29,203 bases of DNA from a virus, in the IMG/VR virus record IMGVR_UViG_3300022745_000125, positions 1-29,203 of that record. One strand, written 5' to 3'. Under the pieces are notes generated by a model, which was given only the letters and a program-made list of their open reading frames with translations, made no database searches and was not told where the DNA came from. Shown piece by piece: positions 5,344-13,182 of the stretch (within the stretch, counting starts at the first letter, position 1; each line of letters opens with the position of its first letter). The translations under genes and the position numbers were made by a program.

Positions 5344-5444
5344 GTGCCGACTGTTGTTCCGAAGTCTTGAGTTTCCCGGTCCCTACCGATGCTCTGCCGA
5401 ACGACGGTCGGCACCCTCCCAAAGCGGACGCGGCGGGGACCGGG
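5344..5444 (+). promoter_or_regulatory. Candidate structured leader RNA with two crossing stems
   Basis: Three inverted repeats fill the 126-bp gap before the gene at 5452. GTGCCGAC (5344-5351) complements GTCGGCAC (5407-5414). CCCGGTCCC (5375-5383) complements GGGACCGGG (5436-5444). TGCCGA (5395-5400) complements TCGGCA (5408-5413). The first and second pairings cross, so together they make a pseudoknot. The first and third compete for the same bases, the usual layout of a switching or attenuating leader. The distal strand of the 9-bp stem runs into the ribosome site (GGGAGAG, 5442-5448). The pairings are exact; the regulatory meaning is inferred. Confidence 0.45.
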
Positions 5445-5451
5445 AGAGCAG

Positions 5452-5835
5452 ATGCCGATGAAAGAAAACCGAAGGTTGTGGTTCAGATCCTACGGGGCGC
5501 AAGTCCTGGAGTCCGTGCCCTACACGAAACTGTCGATGGAAGCCCGTGGGCTCTTGTTCGACCTGCGTGCCTTGGCGTCGCGGGTCGGCGTGGGCGACGT
5601 GGTGGCGATGGACGTGGACGATGTGGCGCACACCCTGCGTCACGACCAAACCGCGGTCGTGATGGTGCTGGAGGAGCTGGCCAAGGGCGGCTTCGTGAAG
5701 CGCCGCCACGACGGCATCGAGGTGCTGGGGTTCAGCGCCGAGCAGGAACCCACCACCAGCGCCGCGAGGATGCGTAAGATGCGTTCCAAGACCGTCCGAA
5801 TGGACGACTGGAAGGCCCTGAAATCGACCCCATGA
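5452..5835 (+). CDS. Winged-helix replication-type phage protein, possibly C-terminally truncated
   Basis: The 127-residue protein starts at ATG 5452, six bases after GGGAGAG; the frame opens earlier at 5389 but that part lies in the structured leader. The core (LWFRSYGAQVLESVPYTKLSMEARGLLFDLRALASRVG.GDVVAMDVDDVAHTLRHDQTAVVMVLEELAKGGFVKRRHDGIEVLGF) has the winged-helix layout of phage replisome-organiser/DnaT-like N-terminal domains: sense the host helicase or origin, then recruit replication factors. It ends with SAARMRKMRSK, where relatives normally continue into a basic linker often carrying a DVTVTS-like motif. Here that motif (CDVTVTSL) appears 21 bp past the stop in another frame, suggesting a frameshifted or shortened C-terminus. 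It is followed by tandem palindromes and a hairpin. Confidence 0.75.
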   Translation: MPMKENRRLWFRSYGAQVLESVPYTKLSMEARGLLFDLRALASRVGVGDVVAMDVDDVAHTLRHDQTAVVMVLEELAKGGFVKRRHDGIEVLGFSAEQEPTTSAARMRKMRSKTVRMDDWKALKSTP

Positions 5836-5882
5836 CGCGACGCATAAAAACGCCATGTGACGTCACTGTGACGTCACTGTGA
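5832..5882 (+). other. 16-codon mini-frame downstream of the winged-helix gene
   Basis: ATG 5832 overlaps the preceding stop (ATGA) and encodes MTRRIKTPCDVTVTSL. The DVTVTS stretch is typical of the linker in replisome-organiser-like phage proteins. This is most simply the displaced continuation of 5452-5835 after a one-base change. A coupled micro-peptide is less likely. Confidence 0.35.
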
Positions 5883-5883
5883 C
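5857..5883. promoter_or_regulatory. Tandem palindromic operator-like sites
   Basis: GTGACGTCAC, a perfect 10-bp palindrome, occurs at 5857-5866 and 5868-5877. A third half-site, GTGAC, starts at 5879. The period is 11 bp, about one helical turn, so bound dimers would sit on the same face of the DNA. The half-site GTGAC resembles the GTAAC arms of the array at 9971-10087. The sequence also encodes DVTVTS in one frame, so a coding origin is an alternative explanation. Confidence 0.4.
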
Positions 5884-6090: not shown

Positions 6091-6726
6091 ATGAGCACCA
6101 CCACCCAAACCCCTGAGGCCGAGCAGGCCGACCGTTGGGCCAACGAGGCCCCGCCGAAGCGGCGCGTGCGGCACCGGAGCGACGCCGAGGGCTGGCTGAC
6201 GATCCGGGTTTCCCCGGAGCACCGCGACGAGTACCTGGAGGCCGTGGAGATCGCGGCGAGGCTGAACGACTCGGAGGGACTTTCCTCCCCAACCGACCCT
6301 ATCGGCCGTCTCTTGGATGCCCACGCCCGCATCCTGATCGAATGGGCGACCGAGAATCGCTTCGCCTACCAGCAACGCCTGCCCTTCGGTCCCCACGCGG
6401 AAGCTGCCCGGGCCGACATGGAGGCCCTGCGCCGGGACCATTTCACCTGCGTTCGCTGCAAGCACACCCGGGCGAACGAAGGCGGGACGACGGCCACGGC
6501 GCTGGTGGACCCGCTGATGCTTGCCGCTGGGAAGGGGCCCCAAGCCTTCCCCAACGGCCTACTGGTCCCGGAGAACAGGATCACCCTCTGCCACCCATGC
6601 CTTCAGGAATGGCTCAGGATCGGCCCAGAAGGCCGCTGCAAGGCCGTATCTCGGATTCTACGTAGGGTGGGGGCTTCCGCGGAGCGTGCGTCTCAAATCG
6701 CCTCTGTGCTAGCCTACGGCGCATGA
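6091..6726 (+). CDS. Hypothetical protein with a two-CxxC zinc module
   Basis: The 211-residue protein starts at ATG 6091 after CGGAGG. The N-terminus is polar and basic (about 1-35). The middle (GWLTIRVSPEHRDEYLEAVEIAARLN) is helical and resembles a small regulator-like segment. Residues 115-170 carry FTCVRCKHTR, a loop of about 40 residues, then RITLCHPCLQEW. The two CxxC pairs have the spacing of an HNH/treble-clef zinc scaffold, but the catalytic His-Asn-His residues are not evident. It could be a degenerate HNH protein or a DNA-binding zinc finger. The C-terminus (AVSRILRRVGASAERASQIASVLA) is amphipathic. The stop overlaps the next ATG by 4 bp. Confidence 0.75.
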   Translation: MSTTTQTPEAEQADRWANEAPPKRRVRHRSDAEGWLTIRVSPEHRDEYLEAVEIAARLNDSEGLSSPTDPIGRLLDAHARILIEWATENRFAYQQRLPFGPHAEAARADMEALRRDHFTCVRCKHTRANEGGTTATALVDPLMLAAGKGPQAFPNGLLVPENRITLCHPCLQEWLRIGPEGRCKAVSRILRRVGASAERASQIASVLAYGA

Positions 6727-7427
6727 GCAGGAAGGCGCACGACCCCGAGCCCGTGGTGGAACGTCCGGCGGAGGATGGCCGTCCGGCCTACCGCTGCTTG
6801 CCGGATCCGAAGGAAGTCGAGCGGGAGGCTCGCAAGCGGGCCCAGCGGGCGGACATCGAAGCGAAGCGCAGGGCCCGGCTTGAGGAGCGGGCGCGGCGGC
6901 CCAACCCGTTCAACCCGTTTCCGATCAAGCTGGCCGTGGCACAAGCGGCCCTTGAGCGTGGCGAGACGGCCCAGAAGGCCGCGGACTTGGCGGACTTGTC
7001 CAAGGCGACGATTACGAAACTGCGGGCCGGAGGCTACGCGGGAATGATCCCGCTGGGCCTGGTGGATCGCCTCAAGGCCGCGGAGTCCTCGAAGCTGACG
7101 CTGGCCGCTGGGCTTATCCTCGACGAGATCGTGGACAACCCGGAAAAGCTCCGGGAGGCAACGCTGGTGCAACTGGCCACGGCGCTCGACAAGGTGATCG
7201 ACAAGCGCGAACTGATCGACGGCAGGCCGACCAGTCGAACGGACGTGCTCATCAACGCAAGCGACCGGGAAATAGAGGAAAAGTTGGTTGCGCTGCACGC
7301 CAGTCTGCGGCAACGGCTCGCGGAGCGCGGGCTGATCGACGCCGAGTGTACGGACGCCGAAACGACACCGGCCGCCCCCATGACAGAGGCGGCCGGAGAT
7401 TCTGACGGAGCCGATGGCTGGGCCTAG
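6723..7427 (+). CDS. HTH DNA-binding protein, candidate small terminase subunit
   Basis: The 234-residue protein starts at ATG 6723 in an ATGA overlap. Residues 35-60 form a very basic charged helix. Residues 68-110 read IKLAVAQAALERGETAQKAADLADLSKATITKLRAGGYAGMIP, a clear helix-turn-helix. Residues 115-170 (LVDRLKAAESSKLTLAAGLILDEIVDNPEKLREATLVQLATALDKVIDKRELIDGRPTSR) match the alpha-helical segment found in phage HTH proteins annotated as terminase small subunit-like (the LATALDKVIDK..LIDG.PT pattern). A recogniser of packaging DNA is plausible because no other small terminase is visible before the large subunit at 11611. A transcriptional regulator is the alternative. It converges on the minus-strand operon and shares CTAG with that operon's last stop. 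Confidence 0.75.
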   Translation: MSRKAHDPEPVVERPAEDGRPAYRCLPDPKEVEREARKRAQRADIEAKRRARLEERARRPNPFNPFPIKLAVAQAALERGETAQKAADLADLSKATITKLRAGGYAGMIPLGLVDRLKAAESSKLTLAAGLILDEIVDNPEKLREATLVQLATALDKVIDKRELIDGRPTSRTDVLINASDREIEEKLVALHASLRQRLAERGLIDAECTDAETTPAAPMTEAAGDSDGADGWA

Positions 7428-8726: not shown

Positions 8727-8793
8727 GGGGTTGGTGCTCCTTGTGGCCGGTAGCGGTCCGGCGTTGCCTCATCAGTGCCGGAGCGACCGGCAG

Positions 8794-8809
8794 ACCCGCC
8801 GAAGCGGGT
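8794..8809 (-). terminator. Tetraloop hairpin after the clamp-like gene
   Basis: On the minus strand ACCCGC-TTCG-GCGGGT is a 6-bp stem with a stable UUCG tetraloop, seven bases past the stop of the clamp-like gene. An alternative pairing, GCCGAA/TTCGGC (8798-8815), overlaps it. It lacks a U tract, so it probably attenuates transcription or stabilises the mRNA. Confidence 0.45.
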
Positions 8810-8815
8810 TTCGGC

Positions 8816-9403
8816 CTACAGGCGGCAGGGCATCAGCAACCCGAAGCCCGGGGCCGAGCCTTCGACGCGGATCGGATCGGACTGCGTCTCGCGGGACTCG
8901 TCAACGGGGATGGTGAGAGTCACGGCCATGTTCCTTGCGCTGGAATCCGTCAGGGCCTTGGCGATGGCGAGTAGCTGGGCCGGGTCGAGCGAGACGCGAA
9001 CCGAACGCAGGGAGATTGCCTGATTCGCGGAGTCAATCACCTGCTGCGTCGCGGGGTAGTGCGCGGGGTCTTGATAGGCCGCGACCTGCTGCGCGTGGAC
9101 AGTCTCCGAAGCGAAGCGGCCGACGACGTGCCCGTCGTCCTCGACCGTAACGACGGCCACGGGACACTTGCGGAGGCCCTTCGCGATGGCGGCGGCGGCC
9201 TTGGCGTCGATCATGCAGAGCTCGTCGGTCCCTGCGTCATCCTGACGAACGAAGGTCCGGCGGACCAGCGCGACGCCATTGGTGGCCTCGACGTAACCGG
9301 CCGGGTTAGCGTGGACATAGCCGAGGTTCGGCCTGTGGGCGTCGGTAGAGGCGATGGCAGCAACCGCGAGGACTTCGGGGGGAAGGGTAATAGTACGGGC
9401 CAT
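8816..9403 (-). CDS. Short DNA sliding-clamp-like protein (DnaN-type)
   Basis: The 195-residue protein starts at the ATG at 9403, nine bases after AGGAG on the minus strand; the frame extends upstream to 9475 but that part overlaps the promoter region. Signs of a clamp: an early alternating beta pattern, GYVEATNGVALV at 37-47 (the ATDGHRLA-like strand of DnaN), a helix DAKAAAAIAKGL, a second helix LDPAQLLAIAKAL, and above all a C-terminus GFGLLMPCRL that parallels the VVMPMRL end of bacterial beta clamps. Bacterial DnaN is about 366 residues with three domains, so this is roughly half length and would need a different oligomer to ring DNA. It likely serves as a phage processivity factor. It is the first gene of the minus operon. 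Confidence 0.72.
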   Translation of the reverse strand: MARTITLPPEVLAVAAIASTDAHRPNLGYVHANPAGYVEATNGVALVRRTFVRQDDAGTDELCMIDAKAAAAIAKGLRKCPVAVVTVEDDGHVVGRFASETVHAQQVAAYQDPAHYPATQQVIDSANQAISLRSVRVSLDPAQLLAIAKALTDSSARNMAVTLTIPVDESRETQSDPIRVEGSAPGFGLLMPCRL

Positions 9404-9446
9404 GATGGTTTGCTCCTGTGGCCGGTCGATAGGGACCAGCGGGCCC

Positions 9447-9475
9447 AACGTAATCGAGACAGGATGTCCCGTCAA
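9447..9475 (-). promoter_or_regulatory. Promoter of the minus-strand operon
   Basis: Read on the minus strand, TTGACG (9475-9470) and TACGTT (9452-9447) are spaced 17 bp. The start point would fall about 35-40 bases before the ATG at 9403. The -35 matches the sigma-70 consensus well and the -10 only partly. The repeats at 9464-9489 overlap the -35 box. Confidence 0.5.
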
Positions 9476-9489
9476 GTCCCCTCATGTCC
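9464..9489 (-). promoter_or_regulatory. Three 10-bp direct repeats over the minus promoter
   Basis: On the minus strand GGACAT, GGACTT and GGACAT begin exactly 10 bp apart (plus positions 9489-9484, 9479-9474, 9469-9464). They cover the -35 element of the operon promoter. Helically phased repeats in this position are typical of an operator for a repressor or activator. The regulator is unknown. Confidence 0.45.
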
Positions 9490-9970
9490 TATCGTGTGGG
9501 TAGTGGCCCGGGGCGGTTGCAACAATCCAAGGGCTCAGGAGCCCTCAAAAGCCCGGGGGCCGCCTTCCCAACTTCTTCACACTCTCACTCTTCACCAAGA
9601 CTCACGACCAAGACGACACAACACAAGGCCCACAAGCGGCCGAAAGGCCGCCCGGTAGGCCGGGCCAGCGGAGCAGCGGCGGCGGAGCAGCGCCGGGGCA
9701 TTGGGCCGGGGTACCGGCCCCGCGCCCGCCTTGCCTGCCCTGGCGCAAGGCCCGAATGCCCCATGGCCCGATGCCCTAACCCACTGTTATGCAAGGCCCT
9801 GTGGCCCCTGCCGGGCCCCGGAGGGGCCAGCGCTGGGCGTGGCGCTGGGGCCTCGGCGCAAGGGCCCTTTCGGCTGGCCCGGAGGGCCGGTGTTACCCCC
9901 CATGGCATGGGGTACCGGGTGGACTGGTCCCGCCCGAAACTTGCCGCCGCACTGGACGCCCCTCGTACAT
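9490..9970. other. Non-coding divergent region, GGCC-rich and hairpin-rich
   Basis: No convincing gene is seen on either strand. Open frames here are Ala/Pro/Arg/Gly-rich and lack start sites. The part at 9570-9630 is almost free of G on the plus strand (CTT/CAC-rich). From 9636 to 9920 the sequence is crowded with GGCC, GGGCC and GCCC words that form many possible stems. One example is GGGGCATTGGGCC near 9696 against GGCCCGAATGCCCC near 9747. The combination of a strand-biased tract, structured GC-rich DNA and the adjacent palindrome array suits a replication or control region. Confidence 0.5.
9636..9665. other. Two consecutive tetraloop hairpins
   Basis: GCGGCC-GAAA-GGCCGC (9636-9651) is a perfect 6-bp stem with a GNRA loop. 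GCCCGG-TAGG-CCGGGC (9650-9665) follows directly and shares two bases with it. They lie between the minus operon promoter and the palindrome array. Without T tracts they are not classic terminators. Confidence 0.5.
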
Positions 9971-10087
9971 GTAACAGTTACACAAACGCATTCTTGTAAC
10001 AGTTACACATTGCCGCAGGCCGTAACAGTTACACTTACGCACTCCGTAACAGTTACAGATATTGCATTGGCCCAGTGTAACGGTTAC
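9971..10087. promoter_or_regulatory. Array of five GTAAC-N-GTTAC palindromes (iteron or operator array)
   Basis: The 11-bp palindrome GTAACAGTTAC occurs at 9971-9981, 9996-10006, 10022-10032 and 10046-10056, with a variant central base at 10077-10087 (GTAACGGTTAC). The first and second copies plus flanks are near-duplicated by the third and fourth (9971-10013 against 10022-10065), sharing an ACGCA-TTC-like linker and a following ATTGC. Centre spacings are 25, 26, 24 and 31 bp. The fifth copy overlaps a possible -10 (TACACA, 10085-10090; TTGCAT at 10062-10067) for the gene at 10100. The array is AT-richer than its surroundings. It may be an autoregulatory operator, a replication iteron cluster or a partition site. 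Confidence 0.75.
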
Positions 10088-10099
10088 ACATTGGACAGG

Positions 10100-10465
10100 A
10101 TGGGTAGGCCGAGAGGAGAGGGGAGTGTTGTGCTCCGGGTGCCGACGGGGTTTGCGGACGAGGTCCGCGGGCTTGTCGCCGGGTACCGCCGGACGCTGGC
10201 GACGCTTGGGGAAAGGACGGATTCTCCGAAGGTAGTCCCGAAGCGGACACCTACCCCCACCAAGCCAGCACCTGTTCCGGTTGAGACGCCCCGGACGCAG
10301 GAGACGCCTCCGGTGGACATCGAGGCTGTGCTGGAGACGCCGAAGGCCCCGGAGCCTCCGGCTGGCTACGAGTGCCCGATCTGCCACCGGACGGTACCTG
10401 ACCGCCGGTACATTGGCAGGAAGCATCAGGTGACGTGTTCGAAGTACGACAGGACGGTCGAGTGA
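10100..10465 (+). CDS. RHH-like DNA-binding protein with C-terminal Cys/His motif
   Basis: The 121-residue protein starts at ATG 10100, directly after the palindrome array. The frame opens earlier (9701) but that part is non-coding. The N-terminus MGRPRGEGSVVLRVPTGFADEVRGLVAGYRRTLATL has the strand-helix-helix shape of ribbon-helix-helix proteins (VVLRVP as the DNA-contacting strand). A Pro/Thr-rich linker (about 45-90) follows. The C-terminus ECPICHRTVPDRRYIGRKHQVTCSKYD gives CxxC...HxxxxC, a small zinc knuckle. No good ribosome site stands before the ATG, and transcription from the possible promoter at 10062-10090 would give an almost leaderless mRNA. I infer that it binds the array and regulates itself. 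Confidence 0.7.
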   Translation: MGRPRGEGSVVLRVPTGFADEVRGLVAGYRRTLATLGERTDSPKVVPKRTPTPTKPAPVPVETPRTQETPPVDIEAVLETPKAPEPPAGYECPICHRTVPDRRYIGRKHQVTCSKYDRTVE

Positions 10466-10479
10466 CCGCGGAGGGAGAC

Positions 10480-10701
10480 ATGGAAGAGACTGAGACGAAG
10501 AGGGAGATCGAGGTGGTGGCCACGGCCCGGACTGTCCGGCTGAGGTGCCGGACGAACCAGTCCGCGACGCGGATCTTCGCGGCGCTCAACGACCCGGAGG
10601 TCGTCGAGACGCTGGAGGCCGTAGGAGCCCACAAGCTGCTGAGCCCCAAGCAGAAGGCGCTGGCGGGCGTCCTGGCCGCGGACGAGGAGGGAACGCGATG
10701 A
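10480..10701 (+). CDS. Small hypothetical protein
   Basis: ATG 10480, five to six bases after GGAGG, gives 73 residues. GTG 10462, in a GTGA overlap with the previous stop, is the alternative start and would add six residues. The sequence (MEETETKREIEVVATARTVRLRCRTNQSATRIFAALNDPEVVETLEAVGAHKLLSPKQKALAGVLAADEE) suggests one beta hairpin followed by two or three helices. No family is recognised. It is coupled to the next gene by ATGA. Confidence 0.65.
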   Translation: MEETETKREIEVVATARTVRLRCRTNQSATRIFAALNDPEVVETLEAVGAHKLLSPKQKALAGVLAADEEGTR

Positions 10702-10943
10702 ACGGTGAACCTGGATCAGTCATGCTGACAGCAGATTCTCGCTCTGACGTTCCTGTCAGTATCCAGGTCGGGATTCGGCTGGCAATGAGGTACGGCGCGA
10801 ACTCCGAGGCTCCTACGGAAGACACATACTGTGAGTACGTCTTGCAGGTTCTTTCGTTCGTTGGCCCGGGGCGGGGGTATCGCTGGGTCGATGTCGAGAC
10901 CGTGCATCAGAATCTCGACGGAACGGATAGGGACCCGGCATGA
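10698..10943 (+). CDS. Small hypothetical protein
   Basis: The 81-residue protein starts at ATG 10698 overlapping the previous stop. It reads MNGEPGSVMLTADSRSDVPVSIQVGIRLAMRYGANSEAPTEDTYCEYVLQVLSFVGPGRGYRWVDVETVHQNLDG. There is no membrane span and no known motif. Third-position GC is lower than in neighbours, so it may be a more recent acquisition. It ends in an ATGA overlap with the Ntn hydrolase-like gene. Confidence 0.62.
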   Translation: MNGEPGSVMLTADSRSDVPVSIQVGIRLAMRYGANSEAPTEDTYCEYVLQVLSFVGPGRGYRWVDVETVHQNLDGTDRDPA

Positions 10944-11377
10944 GCGTCGTCGCCTACGCCGACGGGGTTCTGGCCGCCGACTGCCAGGGGACCAGCCAGG
11001 GCCACAAGTACCGCTCGGAGAAGCTGGTGCGGCTGCCGCACGCGGTGGTGGCCACCGTCGGTGACGGGTCGGCGGGCCGGTCGATGGTCGAGTGGTTCCA
11101 GCAGGGAGAGCACCCGGAGACTTACCCGGCGTTCCAGATGGACCGGGAGCAGTCCTGCTACCTGATCGTTGCTAAGCCCGGGGAACTCTACTTCTACGGA
11201 CCGACCCCGGCCAAGATGCACCGCGACCCCAAGGGCCGCTGGGCATGGGGCTCCGGGCGGGACTTCGCGTTGGGAGCACTGGCCCACGGAGCATCCGCCG
11301 CGGAGGCGGTCGCCATCACCAACGACATGTCGAATGAGTGCGGCTTTGGGGTGACGTGGGGCAAGGTCGAGGGATGA
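10940..11377 (+). CDS. HslV-like Ntn-hydrolase (proteasome-type fold) protein
   Basis: The 145-residue protein starts at ATG 10940. The pattern MSVVAYADGVLAADCQGTSQGHKYRSEKLVRLPHAVVATVGDGSAGRSMVEWF, later DREQSCYLIVAKPGELYFYG, WAWGSGRDFALGALAHGASAAEAVAITNDMSNECGFGVTW, follows the HslV/20S-beta fold: the residue after Met as N-terminal nucleophile, Asp in strand 2, Lys in K(L/I).RL, and GSG(R)D(F)A.GA...GA(S)A.EAV. HslV uses Thr; here Ser would be exposed after Met removal. A phage member could be a maturation-type protease, a decoy or another amidohydrolase. No HslU-like ATPase is nearby. Fold assignment is fairly strong; activity is unproven. Confidence 0.78.
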   Translation: MSVVAYADGVLAADCQGTSQGHKYRSEKLVRLPHAVVATVGDGSAGRSMVEWFQQGEHPETYPAFQMDREQSCYLIVAKPGELYFYGPTPAKMHRDPKGRWAWGSGRDFALGALAHGASAAEAVAITNDMSNECGFGVTWGKVEG

Positions 11378-11598
11378 CGGCAGAGGAACGAAACAGGTGC
11401 TTCCCGATCCCCTGCGACGCCCCTACCCACGAGGAGCACATGGCTGGCGTAGGCATGGCCGTGGCCTACCGCGTCCTCGCGGAGAAGCTTGAGCAGGACG
11501 CCGAGGACAACGCGGCAAGGACGCTGGCCATGCGGCTGCTCCGGGAGTCACATGCCGCGGCTCAAGCCGCTATCCTTGGACGGAGCCCGGGCAGGTAG
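11374..11598 (+). CDS. Small helical hypothetical protein upstream of terminase
   Basis: The 74-residue protein starts at ATG 11374 in an ATGA overlap. It begins MTAEERNRCFPIPCDAPTHEEHMAGVGMAVAYRVLAEKLEQDAEDNAARTLAMRLLRESHAAAQAAILG. It is mostly alpha-helical with two N-terminal cysteines. No family is recognised, and a small-terminase role is conceivable only from position. Its last codons contain the -35-like TTGGAC of the promoter candidate for the next gene. Confidence 0.68.
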   Translation: MTAEERNRCFPIPCDAPTHEEHMAGVGMAVAYRVLAEKLEQDAEDNAARTLAMRLLRESHAAAQAAILGRSPGR

Positions 11599-11604
11599 TA
11601 GGCT
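11576..11604 (+). promoter_or_regulatory. Promoter candidate for the virion operon, leaderless layout
   Basis: TTGGAC (11576-11581) and TAGGCT (11599-11604) are spaced 17 bp, with GTG 11611 six bases beyond the -10 box. Transcription would therefore begin at or next to the start codon. No Shine-Dalgarno sequence precedes GTG 11611, which agrees with a leaderless mRNA. A TAGCCT box stands at 6710-6715, seven bases before ATG 6723, in the same arrangement. Confidence 0.4.
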
Positions 11605-11610
11605 GACGCG

Positions 11611-13182
11611 GTGAGCCTGACCGAATCCATCAGGGAGCGCCGGGAGGCAGCCGTGGCCCGGCGTGCCCCGGAGTCCGTGGACGAGGACAGGGAACTCCTG
11701 CTCCAGATCGAGGCGCTGGAGTCCGAGCGCACCCGCCGCCGGACGCAGGAGCGCATCCGCTACCACACGCCCCACGACAAGCAGCAGACGTTCTACGCCG
11801 CGGGCGCGGAGTATCGCATCCGCCTCATCCTTGGCGGGAACAGGTCCGGCAAGAGCGAGTGCGGCATGGCCGAGTGCGTGGCGCACGCCATCGGCTACCG
11901 CCCATGGCTGGACGAGTCCGACCCCGACTACCGCGTGATCCACAAGCTGACGGGCAAGCCTCTGGAAGTGCCGAACCGAGGACTCATCGTCTGCGAGTCT
12001 TTCGACGAGCAGGGCAAGAAGGTCATCATCCCGAAGCTGCTAGGCAACCCAGGGCAGAAGGAAGGCGGCCTGATTCCGACGACCTTGGTGAAGGGCGTCA
12101 AGCGCAACCAGACTGGCGTCATCACCGAGATCTACCTGACCAACGGCTCGACCATCTTCCTCAAGAGCTACGCCCAGCCGGTGAAGCTGTTCGAGTCGGA
12201 GAACTACGACTGGTACTCGCTCGACGAGCCGCCGCCCCGGGAGCACTACATCGCCATCGAGCGTGGTGCCACGGACTCCGGCGCTCCCATTTGGATGCAA
12301 CTTACGCCGCTGTCGCAGGCATGGATCCACGACGAGCTATGCTCGCGCGACGACGTGTTCAAGATCCACTTCGACATCACCGACAACATCGGGTACGGCC
12401 TGACTGCCGAGGCTGTCGCGGAGTTCGAGAAGTCACTGACCGAGGACGAGAAGGAGATGCGCCTGCATGGCAGGTTCTTCCACCTGCAAGGGCTCGTCTA
12501 CAAGGAGTTCGGGGACATCCACCTCGTGCCGAGGCCGACCACTCCGTGGCCGAGGAACGACAGGTGGCAATACTGGATGCACGTCGATCCCCACGTCAGG
12601 AAGCGCCACAAGGCCGTGTGGATCGCCATTCGCCCGGACAACGTGTACTTCGTGATCGGCGCACTCCAGACGCCGCCTGAGACGAATCTCATCAGCCACT
12701 TCGCTGACCAGATTCACGCCTACGAACAGGACTTCCTCAAGCTTCGGCAGGACGACATCGAACGCCTCATCGACCCTCTGGCCGTGCCTCCTTCTGTCGT
12801 TGGCACCGGCGCGTCGATCATCGACGAGTTCGGTGCAAGCGGACTCTACTTCCGCACTGGCAGCAAGGACCGTGCGACAGCGATCCAGCACATGCACAAG
12901 CTGCTGCATTGCCGACCGGCCGAGGGCTACTATCCGCAACTCTATGTCTTGAACGACCTGCACGAAATCCGGTTCGAGTTCTCGCACTACTCCTTCGAAG
13001 AGTGGCGCGGCAAGGACGTGGCGGAGCGCCGCGACCCGAACCCGGACCCGCGCAAGAAGTTCGACGACTACATCGAGGGCATCCACCGCATCGTGCTCGC
13101 AACGTACATCCCCGACGAAGGCGAGAACGACCAACACGAATGGGCTGCGCCCAAGCGCGCACGCTACTCGACGGGGTACTGA
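11611..13182 (+). CDS. terL: Terminase large subunit (DNA packaging ATPase/nuclease)
   Basis: The 523-residue protein starts at GTG 11611. Walker A is GGNRSGKSE (75-83), Walker B with catalytic Glu is WYSLDE (201-206), and the coupling motif is LTPL (231-234). The C-terminal RNase H-like nuclease shows Asp at 326 (WMHVDPH), Asp at 388 (LIDPLA) and Asp at 485-486 (KFDDYIEGI). Length and order are normal for a large terminase. It cuts concatemeric DNA and drives it through the portal encoded next. The N-terminal 45 residues are a charged helix likely to contact the small subunit. Start choice rests on the promoter spacing and on the absence of a better upstream codon. Confidence 0.95.
   Translation: MSLTESIRERREAAVARRAPESVDEDRELLLQIEALESERTRRRTQERIRYHTPHDKQQTFYAAGAEYRIRLILGGNRSGKSECGMAECVAHAIGYRPWLDESDPDYRVIHKLTGKPLEVPNRGLIVCESFDEQGKKVIIPKLLGNPGQKEGGLIPTTLVKGVKRNQTGVITEIYLTNGSTIFLKSYAQPVKLFESENYDWYSLDEPPPREHYIAIERGATDSGAPIWMQLTPLSQAWIHDELCSRDDVFKIHFDITDNIGYGLTAEAVAEFEKSLTEDEKEMRLHGRFFHLQGLVYKEFGDIHLVPRPTTPWPRNDRWQYWMHVDPHVRKRHKAVWIAIRPDNVYFVIGALQTPPETNLISHFADQIHAYEQDFLKLRQDDIERLIDPLAVPPSVVGTGASIIDEFGASGLYFRTGSKDRATAIQHMHKLLHCRPAEGYYPQLYVLNDLHEIRFEFSHYSFEEWRGKDVAERRDPNPDPRKKFDDYIEGIHRIVLATYIPDEGENDQHEWAAPKRARYSTGY

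Follow-up and report, generated by a model that had tools for sequence, protein, structure and literature searches.

A candidate operator array of five palindromes before a small gene in a tailed-phage record

Five perfect copies of one 11-bp palindrome, GTAACNGTTAC (GTAAC-N-GTTAC), are packed together directly upstream of a small phage gene, and on balance they probably form an array of operators read by a small DNA-binding protein that acts as a dimer, most likely the one which that gene encodes (gene 10100, named for its first position). This reading is proposed because the same word precedes genes for ribbon-helix-helix (RHH) regulators elsewhere; the analogy is one of DNA word and position, not of protein homology. 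Taken as a whole, the operator interpretation is moderately supported. If correct, it would give a phage lineage lacking close relatives in the searched collections a control region that can be put to the test.

The window, that is the whole stretch of DNA analysed, spans the full length of an IMG/VR virus record (29,203 bases), and this record is probably incomplete, a fragment of a phage genome. The source is a tailed phage, since genes for terminase, portal, capsid, head-closure and tail-fibre proteins are present. Its nearest capsid relatives in these collections are about 30-41% identical, and searches with terminase and capsid found no close kin there. The five-palindrome array was missing from all fetched loci of the terminase and capsid relatives. 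The array and its surroundings comprise the following features.

8816 to 9403, minus strand: gene for a clamp-like DNA polymerase processivity factor (phrog_947, E 8.8e-8), heading the divergent leftward operon
9404 to 10099, no strand: intergenic control region separating two divergent operons, clamp to the left and 10100-terminase-capsid to the right (GC profile, loss of codon periodicity, folding)
9971 to 9981, no strand: palindrome 1, GTAACAGTTAC, exact match
9996 to 10006, no strand: palindrome 2, GTAACAGTTAC, exact match
10022 to 10032, no strand: palindrome 3, GTAACAGTTAC, exact match
10046 to 10056, no strand: palindrome 4, GTAACAGTTAC, exact match
10077 to 10087, no strand: palindrome 5, GTAACGGTTAC, exact match, 12 nt before the start codon
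10100 to 10465, plus strand: gene for a 121-aa protein, an open frame with the N-terminus MGRPRGEGSVVLRVPTGFADEVRGLVAGYRR, a Pro/Thr/Glu-rich linker and a C-terminal putative zinc finger
10480 to 13182, plus strand: rightward same-strand genes 3' of 10100, through the large terminase (phrog_1040, phrog_2)
11611 to 13182, plus strand: large terminase TerL (phrog_2, E 5e-13)

The phrog_947 match supports the divergent clamp gene named in the original prediction. A type II hammerhead ribozyme (Rfam RF02276; 39.7 bits against a gathering cutoff of 37) is found on the minus strand at 8758-8816, right where the clamp-like gene ends in its stop codon; its core reads CUGAUGA plus GAAA. An HslV-family peptidase-like gene (10940-11377; phrog_1040, E 8e-22) lies just 5' of the large terminase gene. 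The 234-aa product of 6723-7427 resembles a small terminase subunit by eye and has no PHROG match.

The palindromes occupy 9971-10087, and the window holds no other exact copy. As originally described, the five copies fall within 117 bp right before the small gene. Their start-to-start spacings are 25, 26, 24 and 31, the gaps measure 13-20 bp, and 12 nt separate the end of the last copy from the ATG at 10100. The array is real and non-random: none of 2000 dinucleotide shuffles of 9400-10199 (maximum 3) and none of 5000 shuffles of 9961-10100 (maximum 2) packed five copies of a single palindrome into 117 bp. The stretch is non-coding and has no codon periodicity. At 10.5 bp per turn the sites start at 0, 2.4, 4.9, 7.1 and 10.1 helical turns; four of the five could thus lie near one helix face, an arithmetical statement that implies no cooperativity. 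No sigma-70-like promoter was detected in or beside the array, and the host may use other promoter types.

Part of this arrangement resembles an ordinary tandem repeat. TRF reports the array as 3.5 copies of a 24-bp unit with 78% matches, and similar words occur as plain tandem repeats in other genomes, as would be expected if the array were a neutral, functionless repeat expansion. Such an origin is hardly probable, as the spacing is irregular, the spacers have diverged while all arms are perfect, and the fifth palindrome falls outside the TRF array with a centre base unlike that of the other four. The comparison of palindromes 1-2 with 3-4, put forward at first as a 43-bp near-duplicate, bears on the same point: the two pairs do resemble one another once a 1-nt indel is allowed (spacers 14 versus 13 nt), but their ungapped identity is just 23/43. 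Under a hand alignment the sites are identical at 22 of 22 positions and the spacers at 9 of 14 (Fisher p=0.005, small sample).

Base composition brings in a further alternative, in which the repeats act as iterons and make up all or part of a replication origin like lambda ori. The array stretch is 45% GC in a genome of 66% GC (low-GC zone 9960-10100), the repeats are spaced 24-31 bp apart, and both a polymerase clamp gene and a very GC-rich stretch (about 9630-9930) adjoin, all of which would suit an origin. The GC drop comes in part from the letters of the palindromes themselves, no initiator gene was recognised next to the array or elsewhere in the ORFs scanned of this probably incomplete record, and the genes to the right serve packaging and structure; an origin is considered unlikely. 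The GC-rich stretch accounts for most of what had been called a hairpin-rich gap, a description that is not confirmed, with a folding z of -1.95 against shuffles and 5 of 200 shuffles folding as well.

The protein encoded by gene 10100 gives few clues to its function. Codon-position GC is 0.67/0.56/0.77, which fits a coding frame and is weaker than in the neighbouring genes. No homologues were found in phages, plasmids, viral contigs, PDB or family libraries, since the phage has no close relatives, and the sole plasmid matches in one search had E values of 2-8. The N-terminus is RHH-like by eye only (GRP, then VVLRVPTGF). The protein matched no RHH profile in Pfam, PHROGs, NCBIfam or PDB sequences, and it did not align with either of two RHH family profiles built here (hhalign probability 0.1-0.4%). 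An AF2 single-sequence model was poor (pLDDT 60), with a helix at 16-37 only and no N-terminal strand. The C-terminal motif, read from the sequence, is C-x2-C-x13-H-x3-C, with a weak match to zf-C2HC_2 (E 0.4). The CCHC zinc knuckle has the form C-x2-C-x4-H-x4-C, and this different spacing rules out a knuckle for the 10100 tail. Both labels given to the protein in the original prediction, RHH-like and zinc-knuckle, are unconfirmed, and the novelty seen in a fusion of the two fails as stated because neither half is confirmed.

Since the protein has no detectable homologue, the DNA word GTAACNGTTAC was used instead to look for parallels. A first scan of viral contigs for two TGTAACAGTTACA sites gave no match. 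Looser scans, which looked for GTAACNGTTAC pairs in contigs of viruses and genomes, brought up many plain tandem repeats with no such regulator gene and, among the pairs, a set lying upstream of small genes. Sites no more than 24 nt from an M-x-R-P start were mostly chance matches, the exception being one CopG-type locus (L328). A literature search found no paper naming GTAACNGTTAC, only unrelated or incidental occurrences as judged by titles.

One set of parallels consists of small genes of YbfE type, in viral contigs, small plasmids and bacterial genomes, which have GTAACNGTTAC 15-100 nt 5' of their ATG (L030, L032, L083, L139/L303, L158, L064/L304 and L307). The genes behind these sites encode sequences such as KRGRPATGNAKTAAERM. 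Three of the loci discussed here, L303 and L307 in this family and L342 in the CopG-type family described below, were located through protein search alone, without the motif; L303 has one mismatched site besides its two exact ones, and L307, on an Aeromonas plasmid, has two exact sites near the gene and a third farther upstream. Divergent family members carry related palindromes with variant half-sites, GTCAC or GTGAC (L305, L306, L308, L309). The family profile matches E. coli YbfE, which is annotated as RHH (hhalign 92%, E 5.8e-7; hmmsearch 5e-10). The word is not universal in the family, because no palindrome of this type was found upstream of E. coli ybfE; it is also lacking at L310 and at the weak matches L299-L302 and L334-L340. 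Gene 10100 has the same upstream feature, one seen in the present comparison and not an established criterion. The likeness to these families (phrog_6334/phrog_10506) consists of the same 11-bp word before a small phage or plasmid gene and of an N-terminal GRP. It ends there: YbfE-type loci usually have one to three sites, with two or three in most of the loci read, whereas the window has five, and their proteins have a D..T.DL..K.RGRPxTG.A N-terminus with a basic segment and, unlike 10100, have no C2HC tail. Between the 10100 protein and this family GRP alone is common, with an hhalign probability of 0.1% and no hmmsearch match. As a separate observation, phrog_6334/10506, of unknown function and represented by L139, L303, L158, L032, L083, L030, L064 and L307, looks like a YbfE-type RHH family with putative GTAACNGTTAC operators.

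A second set of parallels comes from CopG-type RHH genes on plasmids of Actinomycetota (Rhodococcus, Mycobacterium), reached via a scan for sites near M-x-R-P starts, plus L118 from the pair scan. In L118, L342, L343, L328 and L344, GTAACNGTTAC or a degenerate 11-bp form stands at about -26 to -40. In the two loci recovered by protein search, L342 and L343, one GTAAC palindrome stands at -61 and another at -26 (the latter with one mismatch in L343). A copy with a single mismatch is placed at -29 in L344, whereas L345, L346 and L348 have related 11-bp palindromes at -29 to -39. A close GTAACNGTTAC pair occurs in just 1 of 395 actinobacterial-class genomes, where it is placed before a CopG RHH gene; that genome (G003) was the centre of the search and was first found by motif, so the count gauges the rarity of the pair and gives no independent association. 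These plasmid proteins (MAQPHKG type) are comparable to the window in the word and its position, in their M-x-[QR]-P starts and in their high-GC hosts. They differ in having one or two sites and a complete RHH sequence, and some lie beside parA or rep; against this family the 10100 protein gave an hhalign probability of 0.2% and no hmmsearch match. Across L344-L348 the elements, at about -30 to -40, are 11 bp long, palindromic or nearly so about an odd centre, and have CAG in the middle; a GCGTGTCG-like string often precedes them.

In these comparisons GTAACNGTTAC recurs upstream of RHH-regulator genes, which belong to two protein families and to mobile elements of both Pseudomonadota and Actinomycetota. 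This recurrence may matter more than the locus itself; from it, operators would be expected in families that are still uncharacterised, phrog_6334 among them.

On two mycobacterial plasmids (L346, L347), a ParA gene is found close to a CopG-type gene that has related sites. This lends some weight to a role in partition, in which the source would be a phage-plasmid, the array its centromere-like site and the ligand a ParB-like protein of RHH type. The repeat arrays of RHH ParBs can double as operators: for ParB omega of pSM19035, parS arrays overlap promoters and serve as both operator and centromere (PMC9499535). The pSM19035 system uses contiguous non-palindromic heptads and a ParA partner (PMC9499535), neither of which is seen in the window. 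The palindromes here stand 13-20 bp apart, the scanned ORFs of this probably incomplete record include no recognisable ParA-type ATPase, and nothing indicates that the phage is a plasmid, all of which makes a partition site very unlikely. Of the combined operator, origin or partition locus first envisaged, the operator part is thus favoured by the occurrence of the same palindrome before RHH-type genes, and the other two find neither a ParA nor an initiator gene among the ORFs scanned.

A clearly less probable alternative than autoregulation, and the one to be weighed most seriously, accepts an operator array and assigns it to another protein, either a repressor or activator that the phage encodes in sequence missing from the record, or a factor supplied by the host, with 10100 merely the first gene controlled. 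The ligand could be the product of a repressor gene outside the record, given that the record is probably incomplete; no lysogeny genes were recognised among the ORFs scanned in what is probably a fragment. The 10100 protein has no confirmed DNA-binding domain, and a word common to different regulators could be read by a third, unrelated protein. Against this, comparable loci have their sites directly before the gene for a small DNA-binding protein, with the same geometry as here.

Under the preferred reading, in which the 10100 product is the ligand, one protein dimer would read each GTAAC-N-GTTAC site, and a filled array would cover 13 to 129 nt upstream of the 10100 start codon. With the sites occupied, the rightward operon (10100, terminase, portal, capsid) would have its transcription repressed or switched, and the divergent clamp operon might be affected as well. 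We infer that 10100 may bind the array, that it would do so via its RHH-like N-terminus, and that binding would result in repression. Besides the parallels in other loci, counted for an operator were the perfect, non-random array by the ATG, the identity of the sites while the spacers diverge, and the non-coding nature of the stretch; counted against it were the failure of 10100 to align with either RHH family, the low-confidence fold model, the failure to find a homologue in which protein and sites could be compared, the lack of a recognised sigma-70-like promoter, the chance that the true ligand is encoded outside the record, and the many GTAACNGTTAC pairs that are plain repeats.

The locus is most likely an ordinary autoregulatory arrangement with more sites than usual. 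A known counterpart is MobC of plasmid RA3, a small RHH autoregulator that binds a palindrome at its own promoter and represses it, as proposed here (PMC4175270). MobC differs from the window in using a single imperfect palindrome of another sequence and in being tied to a relaxase (PMC4175270). It is rather unlikely that a regulator joining an RHH-like N-terminus to a C2HC zinc finger, and acting on a five-site switch between divergent replication and packaging/structural operons, represents a new class of control locus.

Two other repeats were observed in the window. At 5856-5883, between ORF 5389-5835 and ORF 6091-6726, an 11-bp palindrome, TGTGACGTCAC, is present in 2.5 tandem copies that produce two adjacent GTCACTGTGAC sites; GTCAC is the half-site variant also present in L305 and L308. 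At the very start of the record (1-148), an 18-bp repeat occurs eight times within an open frame.
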